From positions 1 through 43,153 of the forward strand of contig JAUWWG010000003.1 in NCBI GenBank assembly GCA_030616985.1: a stretch of 43,153 nucleotides of DNA, read 5' to 3'. The position numbers and the translations under genes are program-made. This DNA is from Thermoplasmatota archaeon. GTDB taxonomy: Archaea; Thermoplasmatota; E2; DHVEG-1. Below are positions 28,932 through 40,133 of the stretch, piece after piece. Each line of letters opens with the position of its first letter. The first letter of the stretch is position 1. The notes beneath the pieces are model-generated. The model saw only the letters and a list, made by a program, of their open reading frames with translations. It was not told where the DNA came from and did not search any database.

Positions 28932-29456
28932 TTACCACCACCATTTATCCTTCCAACTCTGGTTCCACCATGATTTAATTGGCACATGAGTCAACGTTTG
29001 CCAGTTTTCCGTTTTTACTTCTAGCAAATGATTCCAGACATCATCCCAGTTTTCCCCTTCTACCCAGGCCATATAATCCCAGTCTCCAGGTATGCTTGCT
29101 CCACTTGTCATCCAGTTCCATTTTCTTATTTTATCCGGGGCTTCATCTAATTTATTTTCTTTGATCAACAGCCACGTTCCTGCAGGTTTTTCCCACCACC
29201 AATTGTCGTTTTTATGTCCATTATACACCATGTGCGAACTGGTGTTTTCTACTTCGTCCCAGTTTTTTATTTCAGCTACACATCGGTGGACTGTATCCCA
29301 ATCTTGCGCATCGAACCATGCGATGACGTCATATTCTCCAGTTACAATCCAAGTGCCAATCATACTTTCCCAATTTTGGAATCGTTGCCAGACATCATGG
29401 GCTTCCCCTTCTCTTGTCTTGATAAAAACATATGCTGATCGATTTTTCCAATCCAT
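28932..29456 (-). CDS. Tryptophan-rich tandem RAM-like (Lrp/AsnC ligand-domain fold) protein
   Basis: The 174-residue product has two tandem copies of a ferredoxin-like unit resembling the Lrp/AsnC effector (RAM) domain without a DNA-binding domain. Copy one (about residues 8-78) has AYVFIKTREGEAHDVWQRF and VTGEYDVIAWFDAQDWDTV; copy two (94-164) has TWLLIKENKLDEAPDKIRKW and IPGDWDYMAWVEGENWDDVW. Tryptophan is extreme: 24 of 174 residues, including three WWW/WW runs and a WWW C-terminus. RAM domains bind small molecules, often amino acids, at dimer interfaces; any ligand here is unknown. The frame is open from 29480, but the TATA box at 29493-29501 and the AGGTGA at 29465-29470 support the ATG at 29456. 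Confidence 0.8.
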   Translation of the reverse strand: MDWKNRSAYVFIKTREGEAHDVWQRFQNWESMIGTWIVTGEYDVIAWFDAQDWDTVHRCVAEIKNWDEVENTSSHMVYNGHKNDNWWWEKPAGTWLLIKENKLDEAPDKIRKWNWMTSGASIPGDWDYMAWVEGENWDDVWNHLLEVKTENWQTLTHVPIKSWWNQSWKDKWWW

Positions 29457-29492
29457 TTTTCCCATCACCTGTAATTCCAAAACATCTAATGC

Positions 29493-29501
29493 TATAAAAA
29501 A
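29493..29501 (-). promoter_or_regulatory. TATA box for the Trp-rich gene
   Basis: The minus-strand sequence ttttttata predicts transcription from about 29470, so the start codon at 29480 would be outside the transcript. Confidence 0.5.
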
Positions 29502-29648
29502 CTTGCTCAGCCTCTTAGTGTTTTATTTCAAGTGGTTTTTCGGTTAAAAGATGGTGTATTGATCTTGTTAATCTTCTTTAAGGAAGATGAATTAGATAGA
29601 AAAGTTGAGCGAACTCTTTAAAATACCCGCCCCAACCATCAAGAGATA

Positions 29649-38780: not shown

Positions 38781-40133
38781 ATGAAAAAAATAATATTGGA
38801 TGAAAATGAAATTCCGAAAGAATGGTATAACATACAGGCAGACCTAAAAACCCCTTTGGATCCACCCTTGAATCCAAAAACAAAAGAACCAATAGGACCA
38901 GAGGATCTAAAAGCGATATTTCCAATGGGACTTATTAAACAAGAAGTTAGCCAGGAGCGATACATACCAATACCTGAAGAAGTCAGAGAGATTTATCGCA
39001 TATGGAGACCCTCCCCTCTATATAGAGCAGAACGTCTAGAAAAAGCTTTGAAAACACCTGCAAAGATTTATTTTAAATGGGAAGGTGTAAGTCCCCCCGG
39101 AAGTCATAAACCCAATTCTGCAGTAGCACAGGCATACTACAACATGAAAGAGGGTGTTGAGAGAATTGCAACTGAAACAGGAGCTGGTCAATGGGGGTCT
39201 TCGCTTGCATTTGCCACTCAAATTTTCGGTATCAAATGTAGAGTTTATATGGTAAAATGTAGTTATGAACAAAAACCTTACAGGCGAGTACTTATGGAGA
39301 ATTGGGGTGCTGAAGTTTTCTCCAGTCCAACAAATCTTACAAATGTGGGAAAGGAAATCTTAAGAAGGGATCCTAATACGTCGGGAAGTCTTGGAATGGC
39401 CATTAGTGAAGCTGTTGAAGATGCGGCAACCCATGAAGATACAAACTATGCCCTTGGCTCGGTGTTAAACCATGTGGTGTTACACCAAACGATTATCGGT
39501 TTGGAAATGAAAAAACAGTTTGAAGCAATTGATGAATATCCAGACATTGTTGTTGGGTGTGTCGGAGGAGGGAGCAATTTTTCCGGAGCATGTTTCCCAT
39601 TTGTCAGAGATAAAATAGTGGGAGATAAACCGGATTTGAAGATAGTTTCTGTTGAACCACTTGCTTGTCCAACACTTACAAAAGGAGAATATCGCTACGA
39701 CTTTGGAGATAGTGTCGGTCTGACACCATTTCTCAAAATGTACACACTAGGTCATACCTTTGTTCCAGCTGCGATTCATGCAGGTGGTCTAAGATATCAT
39801 GGAGATTCGCCACTTCTTTGCAAACTGACAAAAGATGGATACATGGAAGCTGTTGCTTATTATCAAAATGAAGTCTTTGAAGCTGCAGAATTATTTGTTA
39901 GAACCGAGGGATTTGTGGTAGCACCAGAAGCGGCTCATGCAGTAAAAGCAGCGATAGATTTCGCTAAGATGTGTAAACAGAAGAACGAGGAAAAGATAAT
40001 TGTATTTGCAAACAGCGGACATGGACATTTCGATCTCTCAGCATACGATGCATATCATAACCACCAAATTCAGGATTATACGCATTCTGAGGAATCAATC
40101 AAGAAAGCAATATCGCAACTTCCGGATATCTGA
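38781..40133 (+). CDS. trpB2: Tryptophan synthase beta chain, TrpB2 type
   Basis: The 450-residue PLP enzyme has the TrpB2 N-terminal extension ([34 protein letters not shown]), the PLP-lysine site [16 protein letters not shown] (Lys110), [14 protein letters not shown], and the phosphate-binding [16 protein letters not shown]. TrpB2 joins indole and serine (or phosphoserine) to give tryptophan and commonly works without TrpA; no trpA is adjacent. The length is right for TrpB2, longer than TrpB1 at about 400. It forms its own transcription unit with a good promoter and ribosome binding site. Tryptophan supply may matter for the Trp-rich protein encoded at 28932-29456, but the genes are 9 kb apart. 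Confidence 0.95.

Follow-up and report, generated by a model that had tools for sequence, protein, structure and literature searches.

Within the window, the 43,153-nucleotide stretch of Thermoplasmatota DNA that we analysed as a whole, the minus strand carries a short gene for a tryptophan-rich protein with two RAM repeats, here called W-RAM (Table 1). The first-pass annotation had counted 24 Trp in its 174 residues, a figure that translation of the minus strand confirmed. Trp thus makes up 13.8% of the protein, as compared to 1.1% across the window's other ORFs (minimum length 120 aa); the runner-up ORF has 5.6%, and the chance of finding at least 24 Trp in 174 residues is 6e-19 (binomial, window background of 1.1%). 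The ORF runs from an ATG at 29456 to a stop codon at 28932-28934, with an alternative start possible at 29465 (MGK-). An Rfam scan of the whole window gave no match.

Table 1. Features of the W-RAM locus in the window
Feature	Coordinates	Strand	Remarks
Trp-rich tandem RAM protein (W-RAM)	28932..29456	-	174 aa, 24 W
RAM repeat 1, residues 1-82, PF01037	29211..29456	-	with G-E-Y-D loop and T-S-S
Diverged RAM repeat 2, residues 85-174	28935..29204	-	starts WWW (86-88), Trp-rich tail SWWNQSWKDKWWW
Shine-Dalgarno-like GGTGATGGG	29461..29469	-	4 nt 5' of ATG
TrpB2 (TrpB-like PLP enzyme)	38781..40133	+	9 kb from W-RAM; adjoins W-RAM in two other genera

A frame or antisense artefact, the former named by the first-pass annotation as something that would refute its reading, is ruled out by the dN/dS of about 0.05 (0.03-0.09 across the pairs tested, NG86), by a reading frame that is open in every copy but two, one of them damaged and the other a partial match, and by the ribosome-binding motif, a Shine-Dalgarno-like sequence of the GGAGA- or GGTGNG-type found upstream of the start in 23/23 loci checked. 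The plus-strand ORF at 29092-29547 (151 aa) is an antisense shadow of W-RAM. In the three copies from genus g9 (L016, L017, L018), ATA replaces the ATG at the start, after GGTGGTGGGAAA, and no in-frame NTG lies close by, pointing to a possible conserved ATA start codon.

The RAM domain usually senses amino acids. Residues 10-78 of W-RAM matched the Pfam model of this domain (AsnC_trans_reg, PF01037) with 41.3 bits (E 1.4e-10), well into the family by its gathering cut-off of 25 bits, a score that is carried by repeat 1; repeat 2 by itself reached 13 bits. When the profiles of the two repeats were compared they aligned with a probability of 91.6% (E 8e-7), so that the tandem arrangement proposed from the sequence at first reading is right, and the structural model described below agrees. 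Four or five Trp positions correspond between the repeats (W29/W113, W47/W131, W53/W137, W66/W152, and W126 opposite a Tyr or Trp at 42), so that the recurrence of Trp noted earlier holds for these pairs. No helix-turn-helix domain was matched by the Pfam or NCBIfam profiles; the open frame begins just 22 codons upstream of the ATG, with the RAM domain beginning near residue 7. As judged from sequence and model, W-RAM is a tandem RAM protein that lacks a DNA-binding domain.

The AlphaFold2 model of the full protein is confident (pLDDT 88, pTM 0.85) and consists of two beta-alpha-beta-beta-alpha-beta units. Foldseek matched one half of the model to the stand-alone RAM modules 2zbc, 2e1a and 2cvi (TMt 0.77-0.85). 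Over both halves, the best match was the siroheme decarboxylase NirDL (E 1.3e-5), with coproheme decarboxylases/chlorite dismutases also found, in two-domain alignments of high rmsd (about 7 A). Repeat 2 folded alone gave a poor model (pLDDT 68) and was left out of the fold search. When W-RAM is aligned with DM1, STS042 and the RAM proteins encoded in its own genome, Trp takes the place of the canonical Lys/Arg on strand 3 of each repeat (W47 and W131), and of aliphatic residues elsewhere (W29/W113, W53/W137, W66/W152). Strand alternation would turn W36, W47, W95 and W131 towards the inter-sheet space.

In an alignment of 22 homologues, invariant positions number 20 among the 24 Trp and 35 among the 150 other residues (Fisher p 2e-8). 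W126 is Trp in 21 of the 22, and variation is greater only at W53, W152 and the C-terminal W174. The loop G-x-[YW]-D is kept in 21/22 copies of repeat 1 and 22/22 copies of repeat 2; T72 of repeat 1 is invariant and S73/S74 nearly so, and C59, H75 and H143 are invariant as well. Homologues with most of the Trp replaced by ordinary residues, which would have spoken against a role for them, were not encountered. The near absence of change throughout the family means that these residues matter. In proteins generally, no residue is as well conserved as Trp, and high conservation of it is normal; indeed, 5/5 Trp of TrpB2 are likewise invariant in the same genomes. What is unusual in W-RAM is the number of its Trp, rather than their conservation.

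W-RAM homologues were found in 25/45 genomes of the window's own Candidatus Thermoplasmatota family, spread over about 15 genera, and in 0 of about 345 genomes searched from the rest of the phylum, so that all carriers among the 390 genomes belong to this family. At a looser, class-wide threshold a sister family gave one weak single-RAM match (E 9e-9), which we rejected as an ordinary RAM match without the tandem. When 84,980 species of a collection were scanned by pattern, the records returned were again all from Thermoplasmatota; very distant relatives may exist in other archaeal phyla. Viral, phage and plasmid collections held no relatives, nor was there a convincing fold match, and a virus or plasmid origin was rejected on these grounds. 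Pairwise identity of W-RAM tracks that of TrpB2 from the same genomes (Spearman 0.74), and is consistent with mainly vertical inheritance. On these sequence comparisons, W-RAM is a real, constrained and lineage-restricted RAM variant; as the first-pass annotation had supposed, no described family with its composition was found in Pfam, NCBIfam, the PDB or the literature searched.

The W-RAM gene is apparently monocistronic: TATA-like elements lie upstream of most copies, a T-rich terminator-like sequence follows directly past the stop, and no conserved operon partner was found across the loci examined. Its neighbours (annotated from NCBIfam) vary from genus to genus. The order in g6 and g11 is LeuC-LeuD, TrpY (divergent), TrpB2, W-RAM, PdxS, PdxT; g15 has a single gene intervening between TrpB2 and W-RAM; and in g20, g10, g2 and g7 W-RAM is flanked by a class I fructose-bisphosphate aldolase and a nucleotide-sugar-epimerase-type dehydrogenase. 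In genome G006 a TrpY-family gene broken by TGA adjoins W-RAM (L112, G006:C1:2006007-2006492); TrpB2 is gone from the spot beside W-RAM, and a more divergent TrpB2 lies elsewhere on the chromosome. Sensing of Trp through translation, one of the roles first suggested for the protein, is unsupported, since there is no conserved downstream gene, the sequence past the stop is T-rich and terminator-like, and there is no TRP box; a leader-peptide or attenuation role was rejected because the downstream gene is not conserved.

The family in which W-RAM occurs appears to be unable to make Trp. TrpE-type chorismate-binding enzymes, TrpC and TrpA were detected in 0/45 of its genomes and in 14/14 controls. 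Many of the family genomes are incomplete (56-97%), but this does not account for the uniform absence of three enzymes. The indole-salvage enzyme TrpB2 is retained in 30/45 and a TrpY-family regulator in 25/45. Judging from this gene content, the family probably lacks de novo Trp synthesis and depends on imported Trp or indole. The sequence TGTACA, which we take to be the TRP box, was present in 7/17 trpB2 upstream regions examined, with one or two boxes in each (L064, L065, L069, L074, L077, L082, L084) in front of a trpB2 divergent to trpY. TrpY represses trp genes via TRP boxes (PMC6737238), and the boxes at trpB2/trpY suggest a working TrpY regulon outside methanogens, in which indole salvage by apparent Trp auxotrophs is probably under TrpY control.

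This setting invites a reading in which W-RAM is tied to the supply of Trp or indole, either as a sensor of them or as a reserve or gauge whose level follows Trp. The pattern of lost and kept trp genes fits it, as does the position of W-RAM beside TrpB2 or one gene off in G011, G061 and G015, 9 kb from it in the window, and next to the decayed TrpY in G006. However, the majority of W-RAM genes show no linkage to trp genes, and TGTACA, carried by many trpB2 promoters, occurs in 0/23 regions upstream of W-RAM, so that control by TrpY was rejected. W-RAM also shows no co-occurrence with TrpB2 (present in 16/25 genomes with W-RAM vs 14/20 without; p 0.76) or with TrpY (13/25 vs 12/20; p 0.76). Without either the box or the co-occurrence, the link to Trp supply is suggestive only, and we regard this reading as unlikely; a mere reserve is further opposed by the strong constraint on the fold and on the non-Trp residues. 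A more specific version, in which the fused RAM pair serves Trp-auxotrophic archaea as a sensor of Trp or indole, would have indole rings recognised in a cavity lined by Trp and the protein controlling the salvage of indole or the use of Trp; it is speculative and seems to us very doubtful.

The two-domain matches to NirDL and the coproheme decarboxylases/chlorite dismutases raise the further alternative that W-RAM is a dimeric alpha/beta-barrel enzyme, acting for example on a tetrapyrrole or aromatic compound. AhbA/B provides a precedent of an Lrp-like fold turned enzyme, with its active site between two subunits (PMC4145669), and C59, H75 and H143 would be available as invariant residues. 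We nevertheless consider an enzyme quite improbable, given the rmsd of about 7 A of these matches and the contexts examined, in which no heme-pathway genes were seen beside W-RAM. A siroheme decarboxylase in particular was rejected, since HXYXR, the active-site motif of AhbA/B (PMC4145669), is missing from 12/12 W-RAM sequences tested. For the first-pass suggestions of carbohydrate binding and radical transfer as roles of the Trp, nothing supporting was found.

A purely structural role is somewhat easier to defend. Here the Trp, in a hyper-aromatic core and in patches on the surface, would lend stability to a scaffold or adaptor protein that has no small ligand of its own, for instance one forming hetero-oligomers with the single-domain RAM proteins. 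Several Trp do occupy canonical aliphatic core positions (29, 53, 66), stand-alone RAM proteins form hetero-octamers with full-length regulators (PMC2995911), and in genus g6 W-RAM is separated by about 2 kb from a gene for a single-domain RAM protein. On the other hand, stability alone needs no 14% Trp in organisms that apparently do not make it, and the other RAM proteins encoded in that genome manage without such Trp; we therefore hold this reading to be possible but rather unlikely.

We tentatively favour, at somewhat less than even confidence, a soluble RAM pseudo-dimer made of one chain, in which the side chains of Trp would pack the core and border a putative ligand pocket. The two fused domains would act as an intramolecular RAM dimer that lacks a DNA-binding domain. 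Because Trp replaces both core positions and the Lys/Arg of strand 3, it may at once stabilise the pseudo-dimer and line the inter-sheet space, which is where relatives of the RAM fold hold a ligand or tetrapyrrole. We infer that W-RAM binds a ligand, and a Trp ligand cage is possible; probable candidates for the putative ligand are amino acids and flat aromatic compounds, and the signal may be relayed by contact with partner proteins, such as the single-domain RAM proteins, of which the same genome encodes seven. Classical RAM proteins bind their amino acid at a site between dimers and not inside one (PMC2995911), so that a one-chain pseudo-dimer need not retain it.

No amino acid is costlier than Trp, yet more than half of the family genomes sampled keep a protein with some 24 Trp, nearly all of them fixed, despite apparent auxotrophy, which argues for a specific job for the Trp-filled RAM fold. 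W-RAM is a small protein, probably soluble and with intrinsic fluorescence, so that ligand binding can be tested directly; it also gives access to the physiology of these uncultured sediment archaea.

Among known systems, W-RAM falls below the curated cut-offs of the GYD domain PF08734 (13.8 bits, far under 31.4) and of muconolactone isomerase TIGR03221 (16.4 bits vs 130.6), both of the related dimeric alpha/beta-barrel type fold. It shares with the siroheme decarboxylases AhbA/B and NirDL (4ch7) the two Lrp-like RAM units per functional body, but differs from them by the absence of helix-turn-helix domains and of HXYXR. The RAM domain is also common to the Lrp/AsnC transcription factors (PH1519/FL11, E. 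coli Lrp), which carry an N-terminal helix-turn-helix that W-RAM lacks; going by its domain content, W-RAM is not a transcription factor. A different RAM arrangement was seen at L061 (G000:C77:5384-5581), where an open frame of 434 residues carries the domain C-terminally and has an N-terminal part that is hydrophobic, apparently multi-pass membrane and EamA-like by eye, possibly an amino-acid-gated transporter. Closest to W-RAM are the stand-alone RAM proteins or demodulators (DM1 2e1a, STS042 2zbc, PHS023 2cvi), which bind amino acids (reviewed in PMC2995911) and have in common with it the RAM fold, the lack of a DNA-binding domain, the G-x-Y-D loop and the T-S-S/T motif. Whereas these proteins have a single dimerising domain per chain and ordinary Trp content, W-RAM joins two diverged repeats in one chain with 14% Trp.
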